Shown here: piece after piece, positions 35,334 to 52,700 of the stretch
Position numbering within the stretch: position 1 is the stretch's first letter
How the letters are laid out: every line of letters starts with the position of its first letter
Source: a virus
Reading direction: 5' to 3' (one strand)
DNA length: 64,000 bases
IMG/VR virus record: IMGVR_UViG_3300023184_000079
Location: 17,645-81,644 of that record
The notes under the pieces: model-generated
Told to the model about the DNA's origin: nothing
The model's input: the letters and a program-made list of their open reading frames with translations, nothing else
The model's database searches: none
Position numbers and translations under genes: made by a program

Positions 35334-35846
35334 TTACACCCGGTTCGCGCACACCGGGCCGATGCCCCGGTCAATGGACTCGGGATCGGTCAGAGTGCGA
35401 CCGCAGATCGCGCAGACCCCGAAGCGGGCACCAAACTCCTGCGCCTGCTGCATCGTGATGCGGTTAGCCAGCGACAGGAGTCGCACGGCACCGGGCGCGT
35501 ACTCCCATCCCAACACATCAGTGCGTAAGACCTTGGCATACAGATTGCCGCTCGTGCGCGACCTCTGCACCTTGTACACGGCCTCCTCTCTCATGTAGCA
35601 GCCCTCCGCCAGCGGCTCCACAGCGGGAGCAGCGGCACGGGCCTCGCGGCGCACCGCCGCCAGACCAGCCTTGAGGAGGTCAATGGTGTTGGGCGGAAAA
35701 GCCACCGTCCACACCGTGGCGGCAGCCTCCAGCGTCGTCGTGATGTCGGCCTCGTCTGTCCCAAGGATGGTCAGGTGCTCGCGCAGAAGGTCGCTGGCAA
35801 ACTTGACCTGCGCGGGAGAGGCGGGGCGGGTGCGGGTGTTGTTCAT
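35334..35846 (-). CDS. DUF6011-like zinc protein
   Basis: 170 aa. Helical N terminus; C-terminal FGVCAICGRTLTDPESIDRG and IGPVCANRV follow the CxxCGRxLTDPxSxxxGxGPxC motif of DUF6011-type phage proteins, presumably zinc-binding. It has its own promoter and a terminator, so it is a single-gene unit. Function unknown. Confidence 0.75.
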   Translation of the reverse strand: MNNTRTRPASPAQVKFASDLLREHLTILGTDEADITTTLEAAATVWTVAFPPNTIDLLKAGLAAVRREARAAAPAVEPLAEGCYMREEAVYKVQRSRTSGNLYAKVLRTDVLGWEYAPGAVRLLSLANRITMQQAQEFGARFGVCAICGRTLTDPESIDRGIGPVCANRV

Positions 35847-35852
35847 GTCTGT

Positions 35853-35881
35853 AGACTATCTACTCTCTGTGAGAATGTCAA
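35853..35881 (-). promoter_or_regulatory. Early promoter, leaderless type
   Basis: TTGACA-17 nt-TAGTCT, 6 nt, then ATG 35846. The spacer is diverged from other family members while both boxes are kept. Confidence 0.75.
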
Positions 35882-35949
35882 GGTGATTCATGTTAGGATT
35901 GTGTTTACTCTGCTAGGGCGGCGGAGCCGCCCCGCGCGGGGGGTCAGGG

Positions 35950-36318
35950 TCAGGCGACCCTTGCGACCGCCCAGACGTACTCCGCAGCCTCGTCTCGCGT
36001 CCAGCCCCGAGCGGCGTACTCCGGGGCGAAGCGGTCGTCGTCGTCTAGCCCGTCGATCTGCCACAGGCTGTCCGCCAGAGTCAGCCCCGACAAGCCAGCC
36101 GTGTCCTCGTCGTGACAGACCGCGAGGGTGGCGGAGTCGTACCAGCCGTTTTGCGACACGCCGGGGCAACCGGACAGCGCCTGCAGGGCAGAGATGAGGC
36201 TGCCGCCGAACAGGAAGTCTGCGACCTCCTGAGCCGTGACGGCAAAGCCGGTGATCTTAGACTGACAGGCGGTGCCGACGTAGTGGGCCACGTCGGCAGG
36301 CTGCATATACTTGCTCAT
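35950..36318 (-). CDS. Unrecognised early protein
   Basis: 122 aa. Helical N-terminal part (KITGFAVTAQEVADFLFGGS), then an acidic middle (IDGLDDDDRFAPEYAARGWT). Third gene of a coupled three-gene unit. A GC-rich hairpin (about 35910-35930) follows it but has no T-run. Confidence 0.6.
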   Translation of the reverse strand: MSKYMQPADVAHYVGTACQSKITGFAVTAQEVADFLFGGSLISALQALSGCPGVSQNGWYDSATLAVCHDEDTAGLSGLTLADSLWQIDGLDDDDRFAPEYAARGWTRDEAAEYVWAVARVA

Positions 36319-36638
36319 GCTGTCTGCTCCTTGGTTGCGTAAGCGATTGCGGCAAGTGCCGCACGCTTGGTATCAAACACATCGCTTAGTCCGTAGCCGA
36401 CTGCTCGGTCGCCGGTCGTGGTGTCCAAGATGTACCAGTCAAAACGCTCCACGTCGTGCCACGAGTGACAGCCTCGTCCGCTGATCTTGCCTGCGACGAT
36501 CCGGTTGCCGTCAATGTTGGTTAGCCAGCGGAATCGGCGCTCGTTGCGATGTAGTGTCTCGCACTTCTCGTGTTCGCATGGGGTAGACCACTCGTTGCGA
36601 TCAGGGACGTATCGGTTTGTGGTGGTGGTTATGCTCAT
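36315..36638 (-). CDS. Unrecognised early protein
   Basis: 107 aa. CEHEKCETLHRNERRFRWLT may bind metal; the rest is a mixed fold. ATGA overlaps at both ends place it in the middle of a three-gene unit. Confidence 0.6.
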   Translation of the reverse strand: MSITTTTNRYVPDRNEWSTPCEHEKCETLHRNERRFRWLTNIDGNRIVAGKISGRGCHSWHDVERFDWYILDTTTGDRAVGYGLSDVFDTKRAALAAIAYATKEQTA

Positions 36639-36922
36639 GCCGTCACCTCCACCGCAACCCAGATGCCGTCGGAGCGGTAGGTGAAGGTCTGCCCGTCGTG
36701 GAAGGCGGCGATGCGGCTGCGAATGCCGCGCAGGCGCTTCACTTCGGCGGCGACGTAGGCGCGAGGGGTCAGGTAGCGGTAGCCGTCGAAGATCTCGTTG
36801 TCGTCGCGGTGGCGGAAGGCGTAGGCAATATGAGCCTCGCTGATCTCCGCGTACATGGCGTCAGTCTCCGCGTCCGCCGCGTTGTAGGTGATGGTGTTGT
36901 TGTCGTTCATGCGATTGCTCAT
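36635..36922 (-). CDS. Unrecognised early protein
   Basis: 95 aa; acidic N terminus and a helical middle (LTPRAYVAAEVKRLRGIRSR). First gene of a three-gene unit behind a leaderless promoter, which places the start at 36922 rather than at the later ATG. Confidence 0.6.
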   Translation of the reverse strand: MSNRMNDNNTITYNAADAETDAMYAEISEAHIAYAFRHRDDNEIFDGYRYLTPRAYVAAEVKRLRGIRSRIAAFHDGQTFTYRSDGIWVAVEVTA

Positions 36923-36928
36923 GTCTAA

Positions 36929-36957
36929 AGACTACTACCTTTCGGGTCGGATGTCAA
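36929..36957 (-). promoter_or_regulatory. Early promoter, leaderless type
   Basis: TTGACA-17 nt-TAGTCT, 6 nt, then ATG 36922. Confidence 0.75.
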
Positions 36958-36958
36958 G

Positions 36959-37228
36959 TTAAGATTGTGTTGGGCGGTAGTGATCGTCTTGGCACTCTTC
37001 GCACCACTGCTCCGGTGCTGCCATCCACGAGACGGCATTGGCCTGCGTCTCAAACTGCATGATCGTGCTGTGCTGCTCGCAGATCAGAGTCCACGGCAGG
37101 TCGGGGTCGCAAGCCTGTTCGGCGCTGCTGACCAGCACGACGAGCGTGCCCGTGCTGCGCGCGAAAGAGGCGCGGCGGAAGCCGCAGTAGGTGCGAGCCT
37201 CCGCAATCGCCTGCTGACGGGCAGTCAC
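36959..37228 (-). CDS. Unrecognised small protein
   Basis: 89 aa with GTG start at 37228 overlapping the previous stop as GTGA. TARQQAIAEARTYCGFRRAS, then a beta-rich middle and a C-terminal EQWCEECQDDHY. The longer open frame to 37342 is probably an overlap artefact. Confidence 0.55.
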   Translation of the reverse strand: MTARQQAIAEARTYCGFRRASFARSTGTLVVLVSSAEQACDPDLPWTLICEQHSTIMQFETQANAVSWMAAPEQWCEECQDDHYRPTQS

Positions 37229-37536
37229 GCCCCCACCTCCCAAGCACCGTCGCGGCTGGCATTGGCGACGACGTACAGGATCGCGATGACCTCCGCCGGA
37301 GTCATGTCGGGAACGTACGCGGAGATCACATCGGCGCACCATTCGTTGCCGTCGTTGTCGTTGCCCTCGCCCCAGCCGAAGAGGGCGGCGCGGGACACGA
37401 GGCTACGGAACCGCATCGGCATGCGGTAGACGTAGCCGTCAATCTTGTTGCCAGACGGCTGCCCTTCGACCATGCGGTCGGGGTCGCAGTCAATCAGGTG
37501 GTCAGGGTTCACGGTGTCGTACATGTCTTTGTTCAT
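37225..37536 (-). CDS. Unrecognised early protein
   Basis: 103 aa. VYRMPMRFRSLVSRAALFGW and DMTPAEVIAILYVVANASRD suggest a helical fold. Promoter spacing confirms ATG 37536. Confidence 0.6.
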   Translation of the reverse strand: MNKDMYDTVNPDHLIDCDPDRMVEGQPSGNKIDGYVYRMPMRFRSLVSRAALFGWGEGNDNDGNEWCADVISAYVPDMTPAEVIAILYVVANASRDGAWEVGA

Positions 37537-37542
37537 GTCTGT

Positions 37543-37571
37543 AGACTACTACCTTTCGAGTCAGATGTCAA
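37543..37571 (-). promoter_or_regulatory. Early promoter, leaderless type
   Basis: TTGACA-17 nt-TAGTCT, 6 nt, then ATG 37536. Confidence 0.75.
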
Positions 37572-37640
37572 GGGGATTTGTGTTATTTTTGTGTTTACTC
37601 TACTTGGGCGGCGGAGCCGCCCCGCGCGCGGGGTCAGGCC

Positions 37641-37907
37641 CTAGAGATGTCGAACGCTTGGCTCGGCGTGGTTGATCGTCACGAGATCCGTACCCGTCAC
37701 GATATGCACGGAGTTGAACCTGCCGCGAGCGTTGATTTTGATATGGTTGTTTTGCTCGCGCTCGCGGTAGTAGAAACTGCGGCCATCCTGCCCCATGTAC
37801 TGCCACGGCAGATGCGCTTTGGCAGGCGCGCGTGTGAGGTAGGCGGTGAGGGGCGCGAAGTCGTGCTGCGGGTCGTAGTTCATGGTGTCCTTCGGGTCGT
37901 ATTCCAT
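37641..37907 (-). CDS. Unrecognised small protein
   Basis: 88 aa from ATG 37907, 1 nt after the upstream stop. WQYMGQDGRSFYYREREQNN and INARGRFNSVHIVTGTDLVT look beta-rich. A GC-rich hairpin like the one near 35920 lies downstream (about 37604-37625). Confidence 0.55.
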   Translation of the reverse strand: MEYDPKDTMNYDPQHDFAPLTAYLTRAPAKAHLPWQYMGQDGRSFYYREREQNNHIKINARGRFNSVHIVTGTDLVTINHAEPSVRHL

Positions 37908-37908
37908 T

Positions 37909-38253
37909 TTACTGGCAGTCGCCGCAGAGGGTCTGGGCGCCAGTCCACGCGAGGTTGTCGGTGTCGCCACAGTCGTCGCAGCAGCCGCTGCGAGGAGCCA
38001 TCAGGCCAGCCGAAGGAGCAGCCGGAGTCGTCGTCCACCCATCGGTGAAGTCGAAGATGTAGGCGACCTTGCCGTTACCGAGGTCGCGCTGGTCGAACAC
38101 GTCGCCTAGCGTCACCTGCTTGAGGCCGCCGCTCTTGAGGTGGACGGTGACGTGGCTGCCAACGCCGAAGCCGTGGCCCTGACCATTCTGGACGCGGACG
38201 GCCCAGCCGTCTCCGAATCGGGTAAACGTGCCCTGCGGGTGCTTGGTGCTCAT
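37909..38253 (-). CDS. Protein with C-terminal zinc ribbon
   Basis: 114 aa. N-terminal small beta barrel (RFGDGWAVRVQNGQGHGFGV) and C-terminal CCDDCGDTDNLAW then LCGDC, a zinc ribbon. The first domain could bind nucleic acid; this is a guess. Own leaderless promoter. Confidence 0.6.
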   Translation of the reverse strand: MSTKHPQGTFTRFGDGWAVRVQNGQGHGFGVGSHVTVHLKSGGLKQVTLGDVFDQRDLGNGKVAYIFDFTDGWTTTPAAPSAGLMAPRSGCCDDCGDTDNLAWTGAQTLCGDCQ

Positions 38254-38255
38254 AT

Positions 38256-38498
38256 TTAGAGACTACTACCTTCCGGGTCGGATGTCAAGTTAGGATTGTG
38301 TTTAGTCACAGCAGCGAAGCGGTGATTCTCGCAAGCGGCGATGAACCGCTCGCGGGAGAAATGAACGTTGTCACGGGCGTAGGTGGCCGCGATTTCGTCG
38401 CGCACCGTCTCCCATTCGGACCGGCTGCTGATGGACCAGCGCAGGCACCGGACCGTCTCTGCCATGTCCTCGTAATGTCGCCGGGATAGCGACGACAT
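38256..38498 (-). CDS. Small conserved-type phage protein
   Basis: 80 aa. SRRHYEDMAETVRCLRW, WETVRDEIAATYARDNVHFS, RERFIAACENH match a small helical family frequent in phages, unknown in function. The last residues (NPNLTSDPEGSSL) are the promoter repeat read as protein, as in the gene at 33422. Confidence 0.65.
   Translation of the reverse strand: MSSLSRRHYEDMAETVRCLRWSISSRSEWETVRDEIAATYARDNVHFSRERFIAACENHRFAAVTKHNPNLTSDPEGSSL
38260..38288 (-). promoter_or_regulatory. Early promoter, leaderless type
   Basis: TTGACA-17 nt-TAGTCT, 6 nt, then ATG 38253. Embedded in the 3' end of the preceding gene. Confidence 0.75.
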
Positions 38499-38857
38499 TA
38501 GAGGCGCTCCAGCAGCAGGCGGACCTGCGGGTCAACAGCCACAGCGTTGAGCGCAATCCAGTCGCTGTCAGACTCCGACAGATCCAGCGTGTAGTCGGAG
38601 GCGATGGCGATGCCGCCGAGGTCCGGGTGCTGCTCAACCGTCACAAAGCGAACGCGGTAGGTGCTGTGGTCAAGCCCGTGGGAGTCGCAGCCGCGACCGA
38701 CCAACGTCTCCACAGCCGACCGCAGGGCGGCAAACGTGGTGCCGCGATTGGCGACCTCAGCAATGGCCGTCTGCATACCACGGCTCATCACCTTGGCGGC
38801 TTCAGCGTCCTCTAGGGCTTTGTCGCGCTTGCTCTGGCTCTGATGATTGGCGCTCAC
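38498..38857 (-). CDS. Unrecognised early protein
   Basis: 119 aa. Helical N terminus (DAEAAKVMSRGMQTAIAEVA) and beta-rich C terminus (YRVRFVTVEQHPDLGGIAIA). Overlaps the next start by one base. No family recognised. Confidence 0.6.
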   Translation of the reverse strand: MSANHQSQSKRDKALEDAEAAKVMSRGMQTAIAEVANRGTTFAALRSAVETLVGRGCDSHGLDHSTYRVRFVTVEQHPDLGGIAIASDYTLDLSESDSDWIALNAVAVDPQVRLLLERL

Positions 38858-38859
38858 GC

Positions 38860-39162
38860 CTACACCCCCGTTCCGAAATCGACGTTCTCAAAGCAGGAGG
38901 CGCGGTAGGCGACTTCGCCGATCTGGTCGCAGTAGACGCCGAAGACCTCGCCGTGAATGAAGGTCTGGGTGTCGCGCTTGAAGGTGCGGCGGACGTTGTA
39001 AAGGTCGTTTTCGATGGTGATCTCAACGCGGTAGCCCTTCCCGGCAGGGAGAATGAACGTGTCGTCTTGGACGAACCAACGTCCGCCGCTGATGGCGAGA
39101 AGGTTGCTCCATCCGATCTGGCGCTCAATCGTGCAGGCTTCTGGCTTCGTCAAAATGCTCAT
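38860..39162 (-). CDS. Unrecognised early protein
   Basis: 100 aa from ATG 39162 (ATGA overlap). Beta-rich (GRWFVQDDTFILPAGKGYRV, EITIENDLYNVRRTFKRDTQ). Second gene of the operon behind the 39492 promoter. Confidence 0.6.
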   Translation of the reverse strand: MSILTKPEACTIERQIGWSNLLAISGGRWFVQDDTFILPAGKGYRVEITIENDLYNVRRTFKRDTQTFIHGEVFGVYCDQIGEVAYRASCFENVDFGTGV

Positions 39163-39485
39163 GCCGTCACCTCCTCGCTGCACCACTGGCAGACGCACTG
39201 GATGTCGGCAGGCACGGTCTGGTCAAGGCGCGCGACAACGGTGGCGGGATCAATGCCGATGCCGCGCAGCCAGTGCGCCTGATCGTCTCGCTTGAAGGCG
39301 AGGCGCGCGGCCAAGTTGATCTCGCGCGTCAGCGCGCCCGAATGCGTGGTGCCGGTCAGCGTGGCGATCTGGCGCTTGCAGCGGACGAGCCTGCTCACGA
39401 TGTCGTGGTAGGCAACAACGGCCTGCGCGACGTGGAGGAGATTCTCCGGGGCGATGGTGATGTTCGTGCTCTCGGTCTGGTTCAT
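39159..39485 (-). CDS. Unrecognised early protein, first of the early region
   Basis: 108 aa from ATG 39485, which the -10 box fixes. Helical body (LLHVAQAVVAYHDIVSRLVR) and a C-terminal CVCQWCSEE that could bind metal. First leftward gene after the 0.9-kb gene-free stretch. Confidence 0.65.
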   Translation of the reverse strand: MNQTESTNITIAPENLLHVAQAVVAYHDIVSRLVRCKRQIATLTGTTHSGALTREINLAARLAFKRDDQAHWLRGIGIDPATVVARLDQTVPADIQCVCQWCSEEVTA

Positions 39486-39491
39486 AGGCAC

Positions 39492-39519
39492 AGTATACAC
39501 AACTACGGTCAGATGTCAA
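39492..39519 (-). promoter_or_regulatory. Early promoter, leaderless type
   Basis: TTGACA-16 nt-TATACT, 6 nt, then ATG 39485. The best -10 of the family. Confidence 0.8.
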
Positions 39520-39854
39520 GCCCCATAGGGCAGATTTTTTCTACATATTTTTCAGAGGAACGTACGCACACGCATATAGCATGGGGGCGGGGGGTCTGTC
39601 AAGTACCAACTGTCAATGCCGCCTAGCATACCCTGAACGACATGTCAAGGACTCTAATGCCGAACTGCGGCTGTTCGGGAGAGGGGGGCCGGGTGGGTCC
39701 GGGTCCCATCAAAGACTCAGGACGGACGGTTCTGGCGACATAGCATATATACACTTACTATGTGGCACTATGGCTGGCTGTAAGGTAGATAGGTGATGGC
39801 CGCTCCTAGCATACAGCATAGGCAATGTCAAGTAAGTGAATGAGTAAGTCTTAC
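39520..39854. other. Gene-free region with repeated TTGACA and TAGCATA elements
   Basis: No convincing coding frame. The minus strand holds at least four TTGACA hexamers (complements near 39597, 39613, 39641, 39821), two of them followed 17 nt later by TAGG, plus several copies of TAGCATA or its complement. It separates the leftward early genes from the structured region to the right. An origin or control region is possible; nothing proves it. Confidence 0.4.
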
Positions 39855-39883
39855 TTGACAAACAGGCAGGATTGTGCTATGAT
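39855..39883 (+). promoter_or_regulatory. Plus-strand promoter into the gene-free region
   Basis: TTGACA-17 nt-TATGAT on the plus strand. No gene follows for over 1 kb, so the product would be a noncoding RNA. Confidence 0.65.
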
Positions 39884-39889
39884 ATGGTG

Positions 39890-40378
39890 GGGGGAGCCAC
39901 GGGATGGGCATGACGAGCGGGTAAGCGGGTTCGTTTGGGGTAAAGAGGCGCGCACTTCAGGACAGTTAATAGTAAATATTTGGCTTACCTAAGCGAAATA
40001 ACAGATGTCAAGTATGGCAAGTTCATTAGGGGGCAAACTCGCTCTTTACTGTCCAAGTGGTACAAGTTAGTACAGAGTAATCCGCAGTAGGGTGAACAGG
40101 TTCAAGGGCAAAGAAAAACCCCCTGAAAGGTGCGAAGCGGGTGGCTGCTGATGTGCTGGAGGTTCTTCTTCTCCTATACTGGAGAGGTATTACTTCTATT
40201 GGTCTGAGGGGGAGGGTTTGGGTTATGGCCGCCTTCGGATCCCCCTATGGTTCTTCGCCGCCTTGTATGGGCAGATCAGTACACGGGAAGCGAATGTGCT
40301 GAATTGGCGGCATTCTTCACCCCTCAAAGGGCAGTGCCCGTTACGGTCGGTTAACCCATACTGATCTGCTGTTATTGA
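39890..40378 (+). ncRNA. Candidate large structured noncoding RNA
   Basis: About 490 nt without a gene, downstream of a good plus-strand promoter. Visible pairings: GTAAGC with GCTTAC, GTAAAGAG with CTCTTTAC, GGACAGT (39960-39966) with ACTGTCC (40048-40054), TCTCC with GGAGA, and an 11-bp stem GCAGATCAGTA/TACTGATCTGC near 40271 and 40358 closing a domain with inner ACGGG/CCCGT. No T-run ends it. Strand and boundaries are uncertain. Confidence 0.4.
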
Positions 40379-40915
40379 CTATAGCAGAGTGGGAGGATCC
40401 CAGAATTCAAGCCATTGATCCCGATCTACATCGGTGCCAGTAAATATATCTAGGGGCGAAAATTTTGCATCAAGAAACCTATGATAGTATTCTGGTTTGA
40501 TATCTGAATTATGTCTTCCTGTAAGGTTTGCCGAACTTAGATCCAATTCAGTATCCAGTGTTGCACGAGGAATATTATTCGGATCTCTGAGCGAATATAT
40601 TGCCATGTTTGGCAATGCTGAGTCTGCCGCCTCGCCAGCATATTCTTCCCATCTATCAGATATAAAATCTTGATCCGACCATTTATCGCGCTCAATGCCT
40701 TCCCATTCGCATGGAGGAGACAAACAATTGCCTACCAGTTCACCTTCACGAACAAGGTCTTTCCATGTTTGCGGTTGTCTAATAGTCCATCCATCGGGGA
40801 ATGTATAGATAATTTTGCTAGTATCTTCTGGGAGTTGGGCCGCTCTATTCAGAAGTTGAGTGGTTGTTTCTGCCGCTTGATGCAGCATCTCCGCTCTTGT
40901 TTCAATACGCTTCAT
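40379..40915 (-). CDS. Tagged protein (MKRIETR) with PcfJ-like core
   Basis: 178 aa. Tag MKRIETRAEMLHQAA, then IIYTFPDGWTIRQPQTWKDL, VREGELVGNCLSPPCEWEG and MAIYSLRDPNNIPRATLDTE. The EGE-x-V-x-NC then I-x-L-R-D-P-x-x-x-P-x-A order is the same as in the pentapeptide protein at 46389 and resembles a minimal PcfJ-like core. Divergently arranged with the gene at 40956. Function unknown; suspected capsid cargo. Confidence 0.75.
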   Translation of the reverse strand: MKRIETRAEMLHQAAETTTQLLNRAAQLPEDTSKIIYTFPDGWTIRQPQTWKDLVREGELVGNCLSPPCEWEGIERDKWSDQDFISDRWEEYAGEAADSALPNMAIYSLRDPNNIPRATLDTELDLSSANLTGRHNSDIKPEYYHRFLDAKFSPLDIFTGTDVDRDQWLEFWDPPTLL

Positions 40916-40920
40916 TATCT

Positions 40921-40926
40921 ATTATC
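40921..40926 (-). promoter_or_regulatory. TAATAGAT motif before a tagged gene
   Basis: Minus strand GATAAT-AGATA-ATG 40915. Part of a 40-bp divergent control region shared with the plus-strand gene at 40956. Confidence 0.5.
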
Positions 40927-40942
40927 TTGCCGCCATCTTATA

Positions 40943-40948
40943 TATAAT
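40943..40948 (+). promoter_or_regulatory. TATAATAGAT motif before a tagged gene
   Basis: TATAAT-AGATACC-ATG 40956: consensus -10 box 7 nt before the start codon, no -35 and no Shine-Dalgarno sequence. Confidence 0.55.
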
Positions 40949-40955
40949 AGATACC

Positions 40956-41528
40956 ATGTGGCGTATATCAACTAGAAAAGAAATGCTATTTAAGACGGCG
41001 GAAGAAGAGAGGGTAGAAGTTAACCCAAACACAAGAAATCAGTCTCAATGGTATTTTAATATCTATGAGATTAGTGAGGTTTATGGCGGTTCAGAAGAGG
41101 GTGGTTGGTATTATACTGCTGGCGAGCCTGTTGAAAGCATAAAACTTAAAAATCCTTTTCCGGAGAATGCGTACATTTCCCCACAAGAAGATGGCGGTAA
41201 CGAGGCATATTTTGAAAAAGAAAATACAGAAGTAGACGATTTTCTTAAGTTTTTTGAAAGCAAAGGGTATACTTTTAATGGCAAAAACAGATTCAAAACA
41301 AGCCCCCAACAAGCCGAACAAGAGGATTTCGCTAACGCGCAAAGAAATTATGGTCCCGATGAGGCTGCTGAAGTTTATTTAGAGGGTTCTAAAGCCATGG
41401 AAGAGTTCGCTCAAGGGCATCCGGAATTGTTGGACAAGTGGTACATGGATCAATACACCGATTATTCTTATCGGATTGAAGACCACCCCGGCAGATCATT
41501 CCCCCAACAGGGGCAATACTACCAATAA
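40956..41528 (+). CDS. Tagged protein (MWRISTR), plus strand
   Basis: 190 aa. Tag MWRISTRKEMLFKTA, a variant of MKRIETR. The body is Tyr/Glu-rich (YFNIYEISEVYGGSEEGGWY, NTEVDDFLKFFESKGYTF) without recognised motif, and ends in a Gln-rich tail. Followed after 3 nt by a second, truncated copy of the tag. AT-rich compared with the early genes. Confidence 0.7.
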   Translation: MWRISTRKEMLFKTAEEERVEVNPNTRNQSQWYFNIYEISEVYGGSEEGGWYYTAGEPVESIKLKNPFPENAYISPQEDGGNEAYFEKENTEVDDFLKFFESKGYTFNGKNRFKTSPQQAEQEDFANAQRNYGPDEAAEVYLEGSKAMEEFAQGHPELLDKWYMDQYTDYSYRIEDHPGRSFPQQGQYYQ

Positions 41529-41531
41529 CCT

Positions 41532-41627
41532 ATGTGGCGCATATCTACTAGACGAGAGATGTTATCTGATTTTGATGACGGTAAAAATCCGTTTGACCTC
41601 CGCTCACGTTGCGGACCTCAAAACTAA
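41532..41627 (+). pseudogene. Tag-only remnant of a tagged gene
   Basis: 31 codons: MWRISTRREMLSDFDDGKNP and a short tail, stop TAA at 41625. It carries the complete tag but no body, 3 nt after an intact tagged gene and at the edge of the hairpin-rich gene-free stretch. Probably left by recombination that removed or never completed a body; a functional short peptide cannot be excluded. Confidence 0.55.
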
Positions 41628-41670
41628 TACAATACTCATAAAAAGTGAAGATAACGTATTAGTTTTGAGG
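41616..41670 (+). repeat. 15-bp perfect inverted repeat
   Basis: CCTCAAAACTAATAC at 41616-41630 pairs with GTATTAGTTTTGAGG at 41656-41670 across a 25-nt loop. It spans the stop of the tag-only ORF. No T-run follows, so it is not a classical terminator. Confidence 0.85.
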
Positions 41671-42089
41671 AGAGTCTTTGACGTTGTTCACGTATAGAGT
41701 GTATTGCGTGTGATCTGGTGCGACGCTCATGTGTCCATTACGAGACTCTCGTATGTCCAATAGTGTGGTTGTTATGTCGTCTTTGACGTTGTAGATAAGC
41801 CCGGTGTGTATCTACATGTGTGTGCGGAACCGTATCAGTTTGATACGCTATAGCACATGGCGTGTTGTGTACTACTGCAGGTGTACGCCATCATGTATCC
41901 TCTGCAGGCGATTACCTGCAAATGGCTTGTATCTCTCTAGGTGGTACTTTCCAAGTGTAGGATCGGTTCTAGGCATTACCGCTTGTTGTGTCTAGGCATT
42001 CGTGAAGATTGGGTCTGAGAGGTTCTCTTTGTCTGCGAAATATCGTGCATACGGACGATATTTCGTGCATACTTGGGTCGTGAATCTGG
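41671..42089. ncRNA. Hairpin-rich gene-free stretch, possible structured RNA
   Basis: No gene. Successive perfect stems: TACGAG/CTCGTA (41739-41753), GTAGATA/TATCTAC (41791-41815), CGTATCA/TGATACG (41831-41847), ATGGCGT/ACGCCAT (41857-41891), TGCAGG/CCTGCA (41903-41920) and CGAAATATCGT/ACGATATTTCG (42036-42065). Direct repeats GTCTTTGACGTTGT (41674, 41779) and TCTAGGCATT (41968, 41991) also occur. The density suggests a functional RNA or a recombination/replication region; strand unknown. Confidence 0.45.
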
Positions 42090-42153
42090 CTCGCATAAAG
42101 ATGCGAGTTAAAGGCGTTTAACCCTGCGTAATCGCTTATTTATGCGAGTTAAC
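42090..42153 (+). repeat. Flanking repeat, left copy
   Basis: About 62 bp similar to 46221-46280: both contain GCGAGTTAAAG, TAACC, AATCGC and TTTATGCGA in the same order. Internally CTCGCAT (42090-42096) can pair with either of two ATGCGAG copies (42101-42107 or 42142-42148). Lies at the end of the leftward tagged cluster. Confidence 0.6.
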
Positions 42154-42793
42154 GTAGCAAAGATGCTAGTTTATCGTATTGGAAATAAGACTCATTTAAT
42201 GATATCGCCTCTGGTGAAATCGGCCCTTTGTATGAAAAAGTTTTTAAATTGAATATTGATTCTTGAACAAATTTCGGCTGATCTATTATGTGAGATTGCG
42301 ACTCAGCGTACTCGCCAAGTGATTGCTGCCCCGGCTCAAGTTTGTGATGAATATTAATTAGATTTTTGGGATGAAGTCTAAAGTGTTCAGGTAAGGAATC
42401 AATACCCTCAATCTCCATATTTGTATCTAGGGCATCTTCATCAAAATCTACTTTTGATGGATCCAGTTGTCTTGCGTCTATTTTGAATTGACAAAACGTT
42501 TTACTGTCAGTTCTTAGATAAACATGATTTGCTCTTGGTTCCCCAACTGTTCTATCGTAGACACTTTTACCAAGAACGTCCCATGGTATTAGACCGTTTT
42601 GCAATATGCTTTGAATAGTTTTAATTCCCTCTTCATCAATTCTTGCAGACATATTTTGATGATATACAAAAGGATATGTCTGAATGAACGTATTCCACCA
42701 ACGCTGATCAACAGCCATGCTTAAAAGCGTAAACCTGTGGCCGCCCTGTGAATAGCCATAGATCATCTCTTTTCTTGTTTCAATACGTTTCAC
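42149..42793 (-). CDS. Tagged protein (MKRIETR), ADP-ribosyltransferase-like
   Basis: 214 aa with GTG start at 42793 overlapping the preceding TAG. Tag MKRIETRKEMIYGYS. YPFVYHQNMSARIDEEGIKT, IQSILQNGLIPWDVL and ANHVYLRTDSKTFCQFKIDA follow the pattern of small ART-like folds (YH...SIL-x-x-GL-x-P...VYL). SLGEYAESQSHIID near the end is shared with the C-terminal half of the 471-aa protein at 44296, so this is a paralogue of that half. Activity not proven. Confidence 0.7.
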   Translation of the reverse strand: MKRIETRKEMIYGYSQGGHRFTLLSMAVDQRWWNTFIQTYPFVYHQNMSARIDEEGIKTIQSILQNGLIPWDVLGKSVYDRTVGEPRANHVYLRTDSKTFCQFKIDARQLDPSKVDFDEDALDTNMEIEGIDSLPEHFRLHPKNLINIHHKLEPGQQSLGEYAESQSHIIDQPKFVQESIFNLKTFSYKGPISPEAISLNESYFQYDKLASLLR

Positions 42794-43599
42794 TATTGAA
42801 ATCCCATTTCAAATGATCCCGGCTCTGAGCCCATCTCTTCATGAAGCGGATTCATTGTTCTTTGGCGTTCTGTGGCCACCCATATAGCGGCTTGTGTATC
42901 GCGAGGAGATTGGCCGTATTCCTTCGCAATTCTCCGAATAGCGTTTTGAATTGCTCTTCTTGCTGGATTTCCCACACTTCGCAAAGAATCAAATCCTGCT
43001 GCTCTTGCAATAATGACATCTACGGCAATTGCATCAGGATCGCCAGTCATGGCTTTAAAGAATTCAGTGACCTTGGGTCCGGTAACATACTGTTCAAAAT
43101 TTGATTCGTCTGCTATGAGAACATTGAAAGCGGCTCTAAGGTTTGATGAATTCTTAAGTTTTATTTCATCAAACGGAAATGTCGGACCGACTGGGTGAGT
43201 ATCCATAGGACCCCTCCCCCATGGACCGGCCGACCATTCGCCTTGTTCATTTATTTCAGCCACAGGATTCGTAACGAAGCCTGCTCCATGTTTTAAAACG
43301 TAAGAGATTATCTCTTTTGCTTTTCTAACATTAATTGCCCATTCTACTTGTGGACTGGTGACTGCGATGACAGCGGCCACTCTTTCGGGAGATACTGCGC
43401 CATTGAATTCGTCACTTATATTTTGACAAAGGTTGAAAGCATTTGGGTACCAGTTAACCCCTTCGGAAAAAGCGCGTTCTTTTCCATAAATATTAAGAAT
43501 TTTTCTAAACCGTCTGGAATAGAGATTTTCCTGACTGTTATCTTTAATACTGGCCGCAGCATTAAAGATCATTTGATCTCTGGTTTCAAGACGTTTCAT
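42793..43599 (-). CDS. Tagged protein (MKRLETR) of a phage DUF7178-like family
   Basis: 268 aa. Tag MKRLETRDQMIFNAA. Body: PERVAAVIAVTSPQVEWAIN, VTGPKVTEFFKAMTGDPDAI, AVDVIIARAAGF and PRDTQAAIWVATERQRTM. The order AalSP-x-x-x-W-x-x-N, GD-x-x-A-V-x-D and Q-A-x-x-W is one I associate with a conserved phage family (DUF7178-like), perhaps related to helix-hairpin-helix DNA glycosylases. DNA-related function inferred weakly. Confidence 0.7.
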   Translation of the reverse strand: MKRLETRDQMIFNAAASIKDNSQENLYSRRFRKILNIYGKERAFSEGVNWYPNAFNLCQNISDEFNGAVSPERVAAVIAVTSPQVEWAINVRKAKEIISYVLKHGAGFVTNPVAEINEQGEWSAGPWGRGPMDTHPVGPTFPFDEIKLKNSSNLRAAFNVLIADESNFEQYVTGPKVTEFFKAMTGDPDAIAVDVIIARAAGFDSLRSVGNPARRAIQNAIRRIAKEYGQSPRDTQAAIWVATERQRTMNPLHEEMGSEPGSFEMGFQ

Positions 43600-43601
43600 A
43601 T

Positions 43602-44294
43602 CTATCCTATACCAAGTGTTTGTGTTGCTTGTTGACCGACTTCAGACCAATAGTCCTCACTGGGAAATCTTCCGGGATTGTTGGGGTCACCATTCTGTAT
43701 CAACTTCATGTTGTTTGTTGATAGTTCCTGTATATCGGGAGGCAAAGAATTGAAATACTCTTCTGTTTGCGGTTCAATAAATTGTATGCCGCTTTCAACC
43801 AATTTCTGAGCCATCGCGTTTGCATCAATTTCTTGCTCTCTTCTCTGGTGTATCTTTTGTGTTTCCAACCAATCAGTGGTTCGTTCACGAGGCGCATTTT
43901 CAAATTCTCTTTCTTCCATATATTGGTACAGATGCTGTAACTCATGGATAAAAATGTAGTTTGCATTTTTTGGAGTTTGATATTGAAAAAGATATATTCT
44001 ATACTCTTTGCCGCGCTGCGGCCTCCTCCACTGAACGCTGACGTTCTTGTAGTTTCCAATTCTAATTATCAAAGGAGCATCTAATCCAAAAACTGGATCA
44101 AATATTAACTTATTGACAAGATCCTCATTGACTTTAAAATACGGCAAATACTCACCAACAACATCAACTTCGACTTTGACAGGAGAATTGTGCCGTGCGG
44201 GACCTTGTCGGTTTTTGATTGCTTCTGCAAATGGTTGCCAATCATTGGCTGCTGGTACAGAAAGCATTTGCATTCTTGTTTCTATGCGCTTCAT
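43602..44294 (-). CDS. Tagged protein (MKRIETR) with zinc-peptidase-like motif
   Basis: 230 aa from ATG 44294, giving the tag MKRIETRMQMLSVPA. NYIFIHELQHLYQYMEEREF contains HELQH, of the HExxH form, and REQEIDANAMAQKLVESG provides an Asp/Glu-containing helix as a possible third ligand, as in many small metallopeptidases. A phage protease acting on host or virion protein is possible. Start lies 1 nt after the TAG of the gene upstream. Confidence 0.7.
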   Translation of the reverse strand: MKRIETRMQMLSVPAANDWQPFAEAIKNRQGPARHNSPVKVEVDVVGEYLPYFKVNEDLVNKLIFDPVFGLDAPLIIRIGNYKNVSVQWRRPQRGKEYRIYLFQYQTPKNANYIFIHELQHLYQYMEEREFENAPRERTTDWLETQKIHQRREQEIDANAMAQKLVESGIQFIEPQTEEYFNSLPPDIQELSTNNMKLIQNGDPNNPGRFPSEDYWSEVGQQATQTLGIG

Positions 44295-44295
44295 A

Positions 44296-45711
44296 CTACC
44301 GCGCAGGCCCGAGAAAAAGTTTATCCAGTTCATCACCCGTGAGTGGCCGACCCCATGCGTCTAAGACGACGGGCAGCACTATATCCGCTATCGCTTCTAA
44401 AGGCACAGTTCCCCAATATGCGAGAGTCTTGTTATGTTGAAGAGATTTCTGAGTAACATCTGGGTCATCAAGAATCTCTGCATTTTCCTCTGCCCAAGCC
44501 CCAAGACTTTCTGGGCCACTTTCCGGCCACCATTCTGGATGGCTTGTAGGATAGGACCGAATTCCATCAAACATCTCATTATTTGGATTTTTAAGATATT
44601 CGTCTTCAACATAGTCTTCATCTGCTGAGAATCTTGATGCTTCTAGTTTGCGTAGGTCTATAGTGAGTCTTACGCCGTCTCCATGAAAGTGGGGACTTAT
44701 ATCCTTAACATGCATATAAACAAATCCTGCTCTAGGGATAACGTGTGCGAGGCCGTCGTCAATATACTTTTCTTCTACTCTTGAATTTGGAATTTCATCC
44801 CATGGCATTAGGCCGTTTTTGAGGATTCCCTCAAGGCTTTCATAACTTGTGTCATGGTAGGCATAGGGGCCGTTTTGTTCAATCCATTCTTGTAAATCTT
44901 CTGGCCGCATAGCCATTGCCTTTTTGGAGAACATTGGCTGATATTTGTAGCGGGGAGTGCCATCTTCATATTGAGTGAATTCGTCTTCGTAATCATCGTA
45001 GGCAATAGTGTTGACGCTGTTTGGCGAGGGCTCAGTTCCTGCTGGGTAATATGAGGCGATACTTATATTTTGAGCCGGGATTACACCAAGATATACGAAA
45101 GCGCCATTAGAACGTAATTCTTTCCACAACTCGGTCAAATCACTTCTTTGTTGACGGCTCATTTTCATAATTTCATCGAAAAGAATACCGCCCGATGTGT
45201 CATTTTCCATCCAGTAGAAAAAACTTTCGGCATTTTGTGGTGCTTCTGGGGCTTTGTTTCCATTTATTCCCCATTCAACAAAGAATTCGGGGAATCCTGC
45301 TTCTCTGATATCAACGTATGCCTCTTCCCAACCTTCTACTGTGCCATCATATGCATCGCTTACACGAACAGCAAGAAATTGATTTAATTCCTCTGGATCA
45401 GGAATAATCTTTTGAAGATCAAGTCCAGTAATTTTAAGAATGACTGGATCTCCGCCCGGATATCCCTCGCTCTTAGCAAGAGAACTTTCGTTGAAGGACC
45501 ATTCTTGAGCCGTGGCTATTGTAGAAGCAAGATAAACTCCATTCTCAGCCACACTGTGCCTTGGGAAATTCTTATTTGCAATACCTCTACCAGTCGGCGT
45601 CAAGCCATGATCCCGAATAGACTGGAGGTTGAGTTCGCTAGTGACGTGATACCATACGTTTGTATCGTATGGCATAGAGAGCATCTGTCGTCTTGTTTCT
45701 ATGCGTTTCAT
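44296..45711 (-). CDS. Tagged protein (MKRIETR) with two ADP-ribosyltransferase-like halves
   Basis: 471 aa. Tag MKRIETRRQMLSMPY, then VWYHVTSELNLQSIRDHGLT with NGVYLASTIATAQEW, the YH-x-T...L-x-S-I...HGL...YL layout of Tpt1/DarT-type ART folds. The second half repeats it: YAYHDTSYESLEGILKNGLM, GFVYMHVKDISPHFHGDGVR. T4 packs the ADP-ribosyltransferase Alt in its head; this supports a cargo role by analogy. Target and activity unknown. Confidence 0.75.
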   Translation of the reverse strand: MKRIETRRQMLSMPYDTNVWYHVTSELNLQSIRDHGLTPTGRGIANKNFPRHSVAENGVYLASTIATAQEWSFNESSLAKSEGYPGGDPVILKITGLDLQKIIPDPEELNQFLAVRVSDAYDGTVEGWEEAYVDIREAGFPEFFVEWGINGNKAPEAPQNAESFFYWMENDTSGGILFDEIMKMSRQQRSDLTELWKELRSNGAFVYLGVIPAQNISIASYYPAGTEPSPNSVNTIAYDDYEDEFTQYEDGTPRYKYQPMFSKKAMAMRPEDLQEWIEQNGPYAYHDTSYESLEGILKNGLMPWDEIPNSRVEEKYIDDGLAHVIPRAGFVYMHVKDISPHFHGDGVRLTIDLRKLEASRFSADEDYVEDEYLKNPNNEMFDGIRSYPTSHPEWWPESGPESLGAWAEENAEILDDPDVTQKSLQHNKTLAYWGTVPLEAIADIVLPVVLDAWGRPLTGDELDKLFLGPAR

Positions 45712-45717
45712 TATCTA

Positions 45718-46170
45718 TTATTGTCTAGTCGGCGCAGGATAAGTTGCAAAACCTATCTGACTGGGATACAGATACGATGGCAGGTAATTATGCTCATCGG
45801 TAAGGAGTTCTGGGTCAATCATTTGGCGGCTTTTCAGGCCTTTTCTTCTGCCCCGCATTACTTGAACTGGCACAAGTTGATTGTCTTCTGCCGCCATCAA
45901 GCGGTGATTGCCTTCTGATACATGAGCCTGACCTGTTAAGTCATTGTAATCAACAATGATTGCATTATCATACTGCTGGCCGCGAAGTTCTTCAACTTTG
46001 TCCCAATCAGCGATATCATTGCCTTCCATACCACGAAGATCACCGGCTCTGACGTATTCCACATTAGGATAGCCGGGTAATGTGACTGGGTGTTTTGCTC
46101 TTTCTTCGTTAGGAACTTTATTCCAAAGCCATGAGAGCATTTGCCGTCTTGTTTCTACACGTTTTGCCAT
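45718..46170 (-). CDS. Tagged protein (MAKRVETR) with ParB-like motif
   Basis: 150 aa. Tag MAKRVETRRQMLSWL. The middle (NAIIVDYNDLTGQAHVSEGN, HRLMAAEDNQLVPVQVMRGR) resembles the ParB/sulfiredoxin-fold nuclease pattern, in which G-N-H-R is the nucleotide-binding GxxR box. First gene of the leftward tagged operon, so expression depends on the divergent region at 46171-46388. Confidence 0.65.
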   Translation of the reverse strand: MAKRVETRRQMLSWLWNKVPNEERAKHPVTLPGYPNVEYVRAGDLRGMEGNDIADWDKVEELRGQQYDNAIIVDYNDLTGQAHVSEGNHRLMAAEDNQLVPVQVMRGRRKGLKSRQMIDPELLTDEHNYLPSYLYPSQIGFATYPAPTRQ

Positions 46171-46220
46171 CGTACACCTTATGTCGTAGATATGGATCGA
46201 ATGCGTGGTCTTCTTATTCG

Positions 46221-46280
46221 CTCATATACGCGAGTTAAAGCAGTATAACCTAGAATAATCGCAAGTTTATGCGAATAACG
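46221..46280 (+). repeat. Flanking repeat, right copy
   Basis: Second copy of the element at 42090-42153, same orientation, about 4.1 kb away. The pair brackets the five-gene leftward tagged operon. It lies in the divergent promoter region. Confidence 0.6.
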
Positions 46281-46320
46281 ACATACCCAATTTTAAACAT
46301 CAATTATGTCGATTTTGGAA

Positions 46321-46346
46321 TGAACATTATCTCTTATCGGGATGAG
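46321..46346 (+). repeat. 26-bp direct repeat, left copy
   Basis: TGAACATTATCTCTTATCGG and the next six bases recur at 48241-48266 with one mismatch. The two copies bracket the pentapeptide gene. Confidence 0.85.
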
Positions 46347-46375
46347 AGTTTCTATTATTTTGCCGTTATCTCAGA

Positions 46376-46381
46376 TATAAT
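46376..46381 (+). promoter_or_regulatory. TATAATAGAT motif before the pentapeptide gene
   Basis: TATAAT-AGATATA-ATG 46389: same box and 7-nt spacing as at 40943-40948. Confidence 0.55.
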
Positions 46382-46388
46382 AGATATA

Positions 46389-48236
46389 ATGGCGTTCCGC
46401 ATAGAGACTCGTCAAGAGATGTTGTCCGGTTTTCGTTATGCCGCCATCATTAAAGAGCAAAAACAGTTTGGATACTTCCTTGGCTCTTGGGTTTTTTCTG
46501 ATGTAGATGATGCCACCAAAGCAGCGAATACCCGCCAACAGATTCTTAATACGAAAAATGTAAAAGAAAACGAAGAAACAAGATACGTTGTTGAACAAGT
46601 ATTGACTTCGCTTGATGACTCCGCTTGGCGCTGGTTTGAATATGCCACAAAGTGGACACTGCATTACACCAAGCAAGTCGCTGCTGAAGGGCTGGTTCCT
46701 GAGGAGTATAAGACAAGACTCAACGGTCTAGTTGAGAACCTCATCACTCAAGTCAATCAAGGCTCTGCTAATCACACTCGGATGCAGTCTCCAGAACAAT
46801 ATTCTCAATGGACTCCAAAACAATTAGAAGAGTGGAACAAAGAGAACAATCAAGGGGATAGGCTTCAAGGATCAAAGTTTTATAAGAACAACGTTATTTA
46901 CACGTTTCCAGATGGCTCGACTATGGTTCGACTTGAGAACGAAAAAGACTACGAGATGGTTGGAGAGAAACTCTTTAACTGCGTAAGACACGAGCAACCA
47001 AATGGATGGAAGAACCATCCGGGAATGATCGCTCTTGTTGATCCAGAAGGAAATCCAAAAGCGGTTGCTAGGTTTGGTGGAGATGGACAAAGGATAATAA
47101 GTCCCGGCGAACCACAGTACATGAAGATTTGCTATGAGTTCCAATCTCAAGAGAAAGGTCATCCGGTAATAGCATACAACTACGGAGAATACCTGTTTGA
47201 GTTTCTTGAAAAAACGACTCCTGAGGACTTAGGATTCGAAGGAGAAGCATGGGAAAACGAATCCAAAGTTCAACCACCACATGAAATTGTTAAAAGATAT
47301 AAACAAGGAGAGAGGGATTTCCAAAGTATGGACCTGAAGGGCGCGGACCTGCGTGGCGCGAACCTGTCTCGCGCGGTCCTGCGTGGCGCGAACCTGCAGG
47401 ACGCGAAACTGCGTGGCGCGAACCTGTATCGCGCGGACCTGTCTGACGCGGACCTGAAGGGCGCGAACGCTGGCGGCGCGGACATGAAGCGCGCGAACCT
47501 GAATGGCGCGAACCTGATTGGCGCGCTCCTGTCTCGCGCGGACCTAAATAGCGCGGACCTGAAGGGCGCGGACCTGTCTGGCGCGCGCCTGTTCAAAACG
47601 GACCTGTATGGCGCGGACCTGTATGGCGCGAACCTGTCTGGCGCGGATCTGACGGAAGCGGACATGAATGGCGCGGACCTGTCTGGCTCGGACCTGTCTG
47701 GCGCGAATCTGACTGGCACGGACCTGCGTGGCGCGATCCTGCGTGGCGCGAACCTGTCTGGCGCGTTCCTGTCTCGCGCGGATCTGATTGACGCGATCCT
47801 GTCTGGCGCGAACCTGTCTCTCGCGGACCTAAATCACGCGATCCTGCGTGGCGCGATCCTGCGTGGCGCGAATCTGACTGGCACGGACCTGTATCGCGCG
47901 GACCTGTATGGCGCGAACGTGACTGACGCGAACCTGAAGGGCGCGAACCTAAATAGCGCGATCCTGACTGGCGCGAACCTGTCTGGCGTAGACCTGTCTG
48001 GCGTAGACCTGCGTGGCGCGAAACTGATTAGCGCGAACCTGTCTGGCTCGGACCTGTCTGGCGCGGACCTGAAGGGCGCGGACCTGTCTGGCGCGGATCT
48101 GACGGGTGCGAACCTGACGGGTGCGAACCTGACGGGTGCGAATCTGTATCACGCGAACCTGTCTGACGCGGACCTGTCTGGCGCGAATCTAGAGGGCGCG
48201 AACATGACTGGCGTAATAGACAATCAAAGTTATTAG
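46389..48236 (+). CDS. Tagged protein with PcfJ-like domain and about 59 pentapeptide repeats
   Basis: 615 aa from ATG 46389, chosen because it gives the tag MAFRIETRQEMLSGF and follows the TATAATAGAT box; an ATG at 46269 would add 40 residues. Residues about 165-250 hold the PcfJ-like core (VIYTFPDGSTMVRLENEKDY, GEKLFNCVRHEQPNGW, MIALVDPEGNPKAVARFGGD), shared with the protein at 40379. From about 313 to the end run A-[DN]-L-x-G pentapeptides, which form a right-handed beta helix. In Qnr/MfpA such helices mimic DNA and bind gyrase, so a host-directed role is conceivable. Confidence 0.85.
   Translation: MAFRIETRQEMLSGFRYAAIIKEQKQFGYFLGSWVFSDVDDATKAANTRQQILNTKNVKENEETRYVVEQVLTSLDDSAWRWFEYATKWTLHYTKQVAAEGLVPEEYKTRLNGLVENLITQVNQGSANHTRMQSPEQYSQWTPKQLEEWNKENNQGDRLQGSKFYKNNVIYTFPDGSTMVRLENEKDYEMVGEKLFNCVRHEQPNGWKNHPGMIALVDPEGNPKAVARFGGDGQRIISPGEPQYMKICYEFQSQEKGHPVIAYNYGEYLFEFLEKTTPEDLGFEGEAWENESKVQPPHEIVKRYKQGERDFQSMDLKGADLRGANLSRAVLRGANLQDAKLRGANLYRADLSDADLKGANAGGADMKRANLNGANLIGALLSRADLNSADLKGADLSGARLFKTDLYGADLYGANLSGADLTEADMNGADLSGSDLSGANLTGTDLRGAILRGANLSGAFLSRADLIDAILSGANLSLADLNHAILRGAILRGANLTGTDLYRADLYGANVTDANLKGANLNSAILTGANLSGVDLSGVDLRGAKLISANLSGSDLSGADLKGADLSGADLTGANLTGANLTGANLYHANLSDADLSGANLEGANMTGVIDNQSY
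47334..48218 (+). repeat. 15-bp coding tandem repeats (pentapeptide region)
   Basis: About 59 units of the form GGCGCGGACCTGTCT with variation mainly at the codon for the fifth residue. GC content rises sharply compared with flanking AT-rich DNA. Nucleotide identity among units is high, which suggests recent expansion. Confidence 0.9.
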
Positions 48237-49712: not shown

Positions 49713-52700
49713 TTAATCTTCTTTGTAACCAACGGGTTGCAGACAAAGAACATAAGAATGATCGTCGTGACAGAAATGAAAACTCCATCTTTCGTCTTCA
49801 ACAGCCTTTTTAATGTCTTCTAAAGCCCAAGCGTCTTGCTGTTTTGCGTCTTCAGAGATATTGGTATTATCTTGTTCTTTGGGATTAAGTTTGCCGCGTG
49901 AAAGGTCTTTAAGCCACGACTCTACGGACTTGTGTGCCTCTTTCCAAGATTCAAATGCTCCGACAATATCATAGCCCATGTCGCCGTCCAAAACAATTTC
50001 CCATGGTTCTTTTTTGGCACTTTCAAAGACTTTTTGCATCCAAACACCAGATGAATCGACTAATTCTGATCCGCTGTCCCCAACCATTGGTTTGTTAGTC
50101 AGAAATTCCGATCCATTGAAAAGGTAGTACGGAGAGAATAGATTTTTTAACTGCTCCACTTCATTTTCAGAAAAGCCGCCACTCTTCAGTTTAGTGTTAA
50201 TACGATTAACAAGATTGAACATTGCCGTACGATGCGACGGCACCGCCGCGATGTCAAGCAAATTTGCATGTAAATTTGCATCTATAATATCATTTTGATA
50301 TGCGTTATCAATAAACTCACTGATTGACCCGTGATAATCATAATATTGAAATTCATTTTTTATTCGCTGCGTGGCAGGCAAATCAGGCGTGCCCCAATCG
50401 AAATACCGTATGGTATCGAAGAGTTTATTGTTTTGAATTGGCGTCTCTGGTTTTTCTTCTTGAGATTCTAAATAGGAATACTCTTCAACAAGGCTAAAAA
50501 ATTTGTTTATGTTTTGTTTTTCTATTGACATTCCGTTAAGAATAGATATAACTTCTTGTTGGGATCTGGCCGATTGTATTTTTTTAAGAATTAAATCAGA
50601 ATAATCGTCTACGTCTTCTGACAGAACATTAGAAGCGAATAGCATAGCCATTGCGTTAAGGTTGTTTTCCGTTTTAATATCGTCTACTCCAACCGATAAT
50701 AAGTTTAGGTCTTCACGGAATTTTCCTGCTGCTTCGTATTCTTTTGGAAGTTTTTGATATGTCATATATAAAGCGTTTGCAACGTCGTTAAAGAATTTTG
50801 GCGCCGACGGGGAATCTTTTGAAAAATGCAAAAACAATTCTATCCAACCAATATAAGGAGGTTCAAACGCATTATCAAACTCAAGAAAATATTGCTCTAT
50901 TTTGTTTTTATCATAAGCCTCATTAAAATCAAGTGGTTCGGCAAAAAATCGCTTAGCGGCGTCTCTTCCGGCATCAAATATCGCCTGACTAACGGCATCT
51001 GTAATATCTGTTGGCCGGAGACGTACTTGAACATTGTTACCCTCCTCGTCTTCTTCAACCTCTCCATAATCTTGATACTCTTCCGATTTAGATAATGCAA
51101 TTCCTTCTTTTATAAAGTTTATTGATGATTGAACATCAGATCTTCTATAGTGAGGTGCCCAATCTTGCAAATCTTGCATATCGGCTGGTGGAATATGTTC
51201 TTGATACAAGAAATCACCATCAAGAAAATTAATATCAATTTCATCTTGAAAACGAGTTTCTGTTTCAATACTTTGTATGTGACCATATTTCTCGCCATCG
51301 TATTCTTTATCAAGAAAACGGAGAATTCTTTTAACAATGGGAATCGGTTCGTGGTTTGATGGCCCAAAAAACTCCATGAGATTGTATTCTTTTGGAGATA
51401 CAGAGTTTTTTATGTCCTCTGAAAAACTCAACACTTCCCCATCAGATTTTCCAAAATAATATGCTGAGCCTTTAGAAGCACCGTCTTTGCCTATCTCAAT
51501 AGCAAATCCGTTTCCCGCATCTAAAGTATTTCCATATTTATCGTCCGATCCAATGCAATGGCCCATCGCCCATCCGTTGTACAGCAAATCAACTGGCTCA
51601 GTTAGAAGTTTTGCGTAATATCCATTGTTTGATATTTCTTCTGGAAGTTCCAAATCTTTGCCATAGTCAATATATAGCATGGTATTCTTGATTACTTTGT
51701 CGTTAAAAAATCCTCTAATTATGCCTTGAGGATATTCTTTTGAACTTAAACTTTGCATCTCGCGCATAATTTGAAGATCTCTAAAAAGGCTCGGTCTCGC
51801 GGCGAAGGGACCCGTGGTTGTAGATGGCGAACTTGGGAGTGGAAGCAATGAAGGAATATCCTTCAGATTGAATTTGAACGGTTTCAGTTTGCCGTTCTCG
51901 TTCCGATTTTCAATTCTAAATTTATTTGTTATAAATTGGAATTTGAACATTTCTGCAAGAATTCTCTCGGCACTGGCAAAATTTGGTAAATAAACAGAAT
52001 GCCCGCGCTGGTCACGATCGTCGCTCATGAGATAAGCGGGATCTTCTTTAATTTTTTCACATATTGCTTTGTAGAACCCGTAAATACCAGTAAAATTCTT
52101 TTGTCCTCCATTATAATAATCCGGATAATGGATATCAAACTTATCTTTTGTTCGTGCAAAAATGCTTGCGTCGTTACGACTTGCAAACCTTTCCGGATCT
52201 TCCTGTATTTTTGAAGCAATTTCTTCAAAATTATCCGGAATATAATAATAACTGTACCCTTCGGCTGGAGCCTCGTCGTCTGACCCGGTGTTAACGACAA
52301 TATTTGCTTCTATAAAATATTTTAAGACTTTGTATATATCAAAAAGCGGCTTTGCTTCTTCATAGGTCGGAAAACGTTCTTGCGGGAGGCTTATTCCGAT
52401 TCCTTCGTATATTTTCCTTGAGTTATTCCATATACGACGCGGATCCAATCTAGCAGGGACATCTCCCCGTAGGTGTGTTAACCCGCCATAGCCATTAGTA
52501 TCGGGGCCCTCGGCAAGCGCTTTTTCAATAGCAGAAGCGTATGGTTCATAAAGATTTTCAGATATTGCGTCCAACTTTTTTTTATTTTGGTCGCAAACAT
52601 CTCTGACAGTAATGGCGATGGCTTCTTCGGGACTACTACCGGCAGCCAAAAACGGATCGAAAGAATAGAAATCCGGATTTGTTTGTATTCGCCAACCCAT

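Follow-up and report, generated by a model that had tools for sequence, protein, structure and literature searches.

A set of genes sharing a short N-terminal peptide (the tag) lies at positions 40379–48236 of a 64,000-nucleotide stretch of viral DNA, referred to here as the window. The window comprises bases 17645–81644 of the 81,644-base IMG/VR virus record IMGVR_UViG_3300023184_000079, and the left flank of the record is designated L001; coordinates without this prefix are those of the window. The source is an uncultured tailed phage, which encodes a portal protein, a major head protein and a head maturation protease. Its major head protein is 50–53% identical to those of Gordonia phage Pupper and Mycobacterium phages Alice and Tonenili, actinobacterial myophages with genomes of about 150 kb, so that the record probably represents about half of a full genome and the numbers of tagged genes given below are lower bounds.

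All nine N-termini listed in an earlier note on this DNA were found within 40379–48236, although one of them (MWRISTRREML) heads only a stub of 31 amino acids (aa). The start of the HELQH-containing protein was corrected to 44294 and that of the pentapeptide protein to 46389, the longer open reading frames being mechanical extensions. Genes C2 and C9 and the stub C3 are on the + strand of this region, and the others on the − strand. The tag conforms to R-[ILV]-[ES]-T-R-x-[EQ]-M-[LI] (tag 1) and follows MK, MW, MAK or MAF. Further tagged genes are situated outside the region: two in the left flank (A1 and A2), and five consecutive genes at 15166–17973, adjoining tail genes, that begin with a sister tag, MA[FI][RK]FETANERW (B1 to B5). 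The tagged genes, and one copy of an element found upstream of several of them, are as follows.

L001:10405–11385, − strand: A1, beginning MAFRIETRVEML; 326 aa, PcfJ-like body; downstream of the major head gene
L001:11375–11950, − strand: A2, beginning MAFRIETAAERLEWYKFS; 191 aa, bridging tag; directly after the major head gene
15166–15801, − strand: B1, sister tag MAFKFETANERWKWFKKS; 211 aa
15806–16315, − strand: B2, sister tag MAIKFETANERWKWY; 169 aa
16305–16844, − strand: B3, sister tag MAFKFETANERWKWF; 179 aa
16834–17382, − strand: B4, sister tag MAFRFETANERWDWYKQS and DUF7249 (PF23907, E = 1.6e-6); 182 aa
17410–17973, − strand: B5, sister tag MAFRFETANERWKWYKQS; 187 aa
40379–40915, − strand: C1, MKRIETRAEML and PcfJ-like body; 178 aa
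40945–40953, + strand: TAATAGATA element, just before the start of C2; also precedes C1, C7 and C9
40956–41528, + strand: C2, MWRISTRKEML and a phrog_7302 stretch (E = 5e-7); 190 aa
41532–41627, + strand: C3, MWRISTRREML stub; 31 aa, perhaps a cargo remnant
42149–42793, − strand: C4, MKRIETRKEMI and ART-like body; 214 aa, GTG start
42793–43599, − strand: C5, MKRLETRDQMI and DUF7178 (PF23802, E = 8e-24, residues 27–245); 268 aa
43602–44294, − strand: C6, MKRIETRMQML and HELQH-containing body; 230 aa, weak match to DUF6782 metallopeptidase (E = 0.015)
44296–45711, − strand: C7, MKRIETRRQML and two ART-like stretches; 471 aa
45718–46170, − strand: C8, MAKRVETRRQML and ParB-like body; 150 aa, weak match to phrog_723 (E = 0.007)
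46389–48236, + strand: C9, MAFRIETRQEML, PcfJ-like region and pentapeptide repeats (PF00805, E = 1e-99); 615 aa

Conservation and distribution of the tag

A short N-terminal peptide is thus common to about 15 proteins with otherwise unrelated bodies in this partial genome. With a log-odds matrix, the nine full-length tag-1 proteins score 28.5–34.4 bits, against 6.6 bits for the best untagged open reading frame and 6.8 bits for the best of 20,000 random 10-mers; the matrix was built from the tags and is circular for its members, so the informative part is the gap in score. A2 scores 18.2 bits and bridges tag 1 and the sister tag. An all-against-all comparison of N-termini, independent of the matrix, returned only the tag cluster, the sister cluster and one chance pair from this record. 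When nine related phage contigs were compared at this threshold, no such cluster emerged: the pairs recovered were paralogous tail genes, low-complexity frames or due to chance.

Agreement between pairs of tag-1 genes is 85% at codon positions 1/2 and 56% at position 3; the corresponding values for the sister tag are 90% and 74%. Since the third codon positions vary, the conserved entity is the peptide and not the DNA, and the shared peptide is under selection at the protein level.

A search of related genomes for the same tag on other bodies, proposed in the earlier note, was fruitful for the sister tag: it heads three more genes in two close relatives, again directly behind the head gene. 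Altogether, the tags were found in only three IMG/VR contigs, the source included. The exact tag-1 pattern gave zero matches in IMG/VR, and the relaxed pattern gave four contigs, in none of which the tag begins a real protein. In IMG/VR, the sister-tag patterns returned only the two relatives already known, and in GTDB genomes they gave three matches, all due to chance. The searched collections may omit the window's own record, and its absence from the match lists is uninformative.

Several tagged starts are preceded by a TAATAG-type element, TAATAGAT(A), found at 40945–40953, at 46378–46386 and upstream of C1, C7, B4 and B5. Six copies of TAATAGATA occur in the record, four of them abutting tagged genes. 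Several of the starts preceded by the element lack a clear Shine–Dalgarno sequence. The element also stands before two structural genes, which carry no tag, and is not present before A1, B1, C4, C6 and C8; before C7 it coincides with the TAA TAG stop pair of C8. It is possibly a late −10 or leaderless start element.

Bodies, cargo slots and related giant proteins

The earlier note regarded the bodies as dissimilar, and this holds: pairwise, clear similarity is confined to A1, C9 and C1 (PcfJ-like; C9 is 34% identical to the body of A1) and to the paralogous C4 and C7 (ART-like). The first 28 residues of B4 and B5 are identical at 27 positions, and no similarity was detected beyond them. The labels given to the bodies are of uneven standing. 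DUF7178 and the pentapeptide repeats are firm, PcfJ is reached through a linked relative, and the ParB, ART and metallopeptidase labels are weak. For C4 and C7, the ART models gave E-values of 0.015 (PARP), 0.008 (DUF7002) and 0.05 (KptA), all below the cut-off. The C-terminal stretch of C7 has conserved YH.T / PR..HVY / DED motifs; a fold prediction for C7 from a two-row alignment reached a mean predicted local distance difference test (pLDDT) score of 29 and was discarded. Searches for related loci, run with the DUF7178 protein and with the ART alignment, produced no usable result.

In more distant relatives, the PcfJ-like, ART-like, ParB-like, DUF7178 and DUF7249 bodies are internal domains of proteins of 700–2600 residues. 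Residues 14–147 of C1 match residues 411–578 of a 2581-aa protein of G021 (35%, E = 8e-22) that carries PcfJ (PF14284), and residues 11–114 of C7 match residues 1386–1480 of a 1973-aa protein of G024 (E = 8e-11) that also holds a C1-like region. In both cases, homology begins where the tag ends (residues 14 and 11, respectively). C4 and C7 have two matches in a 1558-aa protein of G009 and also match a 1534-aa protein of G021; in the latter (L126:11526–16130) the ART-like region is fused to a poly(A) polymerase / tRNA nucleotidyltransferase (PF01743, E = 4e-23). An 815-aa protein of G021 contains a match to the body of B4 (E = 6e-16), and a 724-aa DUF7178 protein of G026 fuses C5- and C8-like regions, C8 matching its N-terminal part (E = 7e-5). 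The two largest giants of G021 lie 7.5–20 kb downstream of the portal gene, and the tagged cluster of the source phage 12–20 kb downstream. Phage-borne giants of this kind have been defined as polyvalent proteins and are predicted to be packaged in the capsid (Iyer et al. 2017, PMC5512222). The tagged bodies match the domain repertoire of these giants; each tagged protein has one kind of domain, bar C9 (PcfJ-like and pentapeptide), and so does not combine several effectors as polyvalent proteins do.

The carriers of the tag are accessory genes in variable loci, at sites among head and tail genes that are empty in some genomes and occupied in others. Behind the major head gene, L002 and L003 proceed straight to the next conserved gene, L070 has one tagged gene, and L004 and the source phage have two each. 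At the slot of the five sister-tagged genes, G023 and G002 have no gene, and G001 has an unrelated open reading frame. No portal match occurs in these three contigs, which apparently do not extend to the portal-side cluster (40–48 kb); that they lack it is therefore uninformative. The tagged genes thus behave like swappable cargo near head genes.

The major head gene is at L001:12039–13109 and the head maturation protease gene at L001:13762–16296 (phrog_18299, E = 2e-22). An ASL stretch, often TASL, recurs about 20–30 residues into the head-protease proteins of this clade and may be where they cleave themselves. A block of 60–62% G+C (32000–40000) ends immediately before the tagged cluster, the rest of the genome being 37–54%. 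Between the cluster and the portal-side genes is an untagged 1055-aa protein (49713–52880); translation from an internal start (52700) would begin MGWRIQTNPDFYS, a weakly tag-like sequence whose 5.7 bits are near the chance maximum. Elsewhere, the window carries a 1544-aa tail-region protein (10499–15133) with a DnaJ-type CXXCXGXG zinc motif at residues 1406–1457 (E = 6e-6, below the curated cut-off), a pyrimidine-dimer DNA glycosylase (PF03013; 24256–26607) adjoining an SNF2-type helicase, a tRNA-Arg(tct) at 20211–20284 and a tRNA-like gene at 30347–30421 with a four-base anticodon call (ttga).

Interpretation of the tag

By analogy with the packaging leaders of other phages, the tag is probably a lineage-specific capsid-targeting signal that directs proteins into the prohead. 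Capsid targeting of a set of co-injected effectors was the interpretation put forward in the earlier note, and it is the one that best fits the data. It is favoured by the variable cargo slots among head and tail genes, by the two tagged genes directly after the head gene, and by the bodies, which are domains of polyvalent proteins in relatives and whose homology starts at the end of the tag. From the upstream element and the gene positions, we infer that the tagged proteins would be made late; their N-terminal peptide would bind the inside of the assembling head, and they would be packaged alongside the DNA and delivered by injection to the next host, the tag possibly being removed by the head protease. 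Once injected, the ART-like, ParB-like, putative peptidase, PcfJ-like and other bodies may act on host defences or machinery. A separate copy of the signal on each effector would replace the fused giants of related phages, in which many effector domains share one polypeptide, and a few slots would acquire and lose cargo genes, each together with its tag.

Several observations weigh against capsid targeting. The tag is known from the sequence of an uncultured phage, and no cultured relative is known to carry it. It is not a copy of the N-terminus of the phage's own head protein, a candidate that was rejected at −6 bits. No convincing cleavage motif for the head protease was recognised; K-x-A, considered as a site at the joints between tag and body and between the domains of giants, was only mildly enriched in the giants (9 against 3.5 expected, 6 against 4.4 and 11 against 5.4), and the remaining proteins also exceeded expectation. 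The N-termini of the giants in relatives have no recognisable copy of the tag, and the ART, metallopeptidase and ParB labels rest on weak matches.

Any form of targeting would suit a short N-terminal peptide on unrelated proteins, and the tag might instead sort or dock its carriers elsewhere, be it at a replication compartment, at the host membrane or on a phage complex such as the tail or neck. The five tagged genes beside the tail genes (15166–17973) would be in keeping with this. Such a destination outside the prohead is nevertheless unlikely, given the two tagged genes directly behind the major head gene and the several bodies that occur as domains in giants of the polyvalent kind, which are predicted to be injected. 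The signal for a phage nucleus-like compartment that the earlier note offered as an alternative is weakened by the kinship of this phage to 150-kb actinobacterial myophages and not to nucleus-forming jumbo phages (no search for chimallin was made).

The shared start could also serve mainly as a recombination handle for exchanging bodies, with no role for the peptide. The cargo slots are variable, B4 and B5 have near-identical starts on different bodies, a stub consists of the tag only (41532–41627), and TAATAGATA often precedes the tag, all of which would suit a handle. A DNA handle should, however, preserve third codon positions, and these agree in far fewer cases than positions 1/2 (56% versus 85%); a purely recombinational role is quite improbable, and the handle could arise secondarily from a peptide used for targeting.

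It is very improbable that the N-terminus belongs to a folded unit or forms a helix that binds a partner after injection, for instance to recruit a common host or phage protein. The tag-1 motif could make a short amphipathic helix, but similarity ends after 11–18 residues, which is too short for a domain, and the matches to giants begin right behind it; binding of a common partner in the infected cell is conceivable all the same. The possibility raised in the earlier note, that the tag belongs to one folded domain in all the proteins, is contradicted by the same limit and by the dissimilar bodies. The other alternative proposed there, a translation-enhancing or leaderless start in which the amino acids are incidental, finds some support in the TAATAG-type element and the missing Shine–Dalgarno sequences, but synonymous variation within a fixed peptide, the five tagged starts without the element and the structural genes that have the element and no tag leave it scarcely tenable.

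Comparison with known systems

Among cultured phages, close parallels are the Bixzunavirus (Ceeclamvirinae) and Puppervirus myophages, which have head proteins of 50–53% identity and the same small gene just before the major head gene. A search of cultured phages gave no close match to the tagged bodies tested and no full-length match to the giants tested.

A functional counterpart of capsid targeting is found in T4. Its internal proteins Ip1–3 block different restriction enzymes, one each, and have nothing in common except the N-terminal leader by which they are packaged (PMC12373910). For internal protein III, 10 N-terminal residues are sufficient for targeting to the head, and the head protease removes the leaders (PMC9026906). 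T4 IPI–III and Alt and the proteins described here have in common an N-terminal leader of about 10 residues, unrelated accessory proteins encoded at several loci, an ART (putative in the source phage) among the cargo and a head protease. They differ in lineage and in the tag itself; 15 tagged proteins occur here in a partial genome, and packaging and cleavage are matters of inference for this phage. The resemblance between the tag and the T4 leader is one of analogy, both being too short for a meaningful test of homology.

In phage P1, the first 30 residues of DarB are sufficient to direct a foreign protein into the capsid (PMC9024508). The Dar system likewise has an N-terminal packaging signal on a large effector, and defence-blocking proteins carried in the head, but the signal is on one giant protein, whereas in the source phage one signal is common to many small proteins. 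Polyvalent proteins (PMC5512222) have an overlapping set of domains (ART, ParB-like and peptidase-like) and predicted packaging, and relatives of the source phage encode such giants; the source phage itself has most of the domains as individual proteins, each bearing the tag.

It is an even call whether one lineage has turned the polyvalent strategy into a tag-and-cargo system, in which at least 15 independent effectors carry the same packaging tag and are acquired and lost as cassettes in fixed slots. If so, the tag would be a reading key to the injected-effector repertoire of such phages, a sequence rule that picks injected effectors, mostly of unknown function, straight from genomes, and the phage's choice of proteins for injection becomes testable. 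Capsid targeting of the T4 kind would then extend to a large and unrelated group of myophages and be tied directly to polyvalent proteins.

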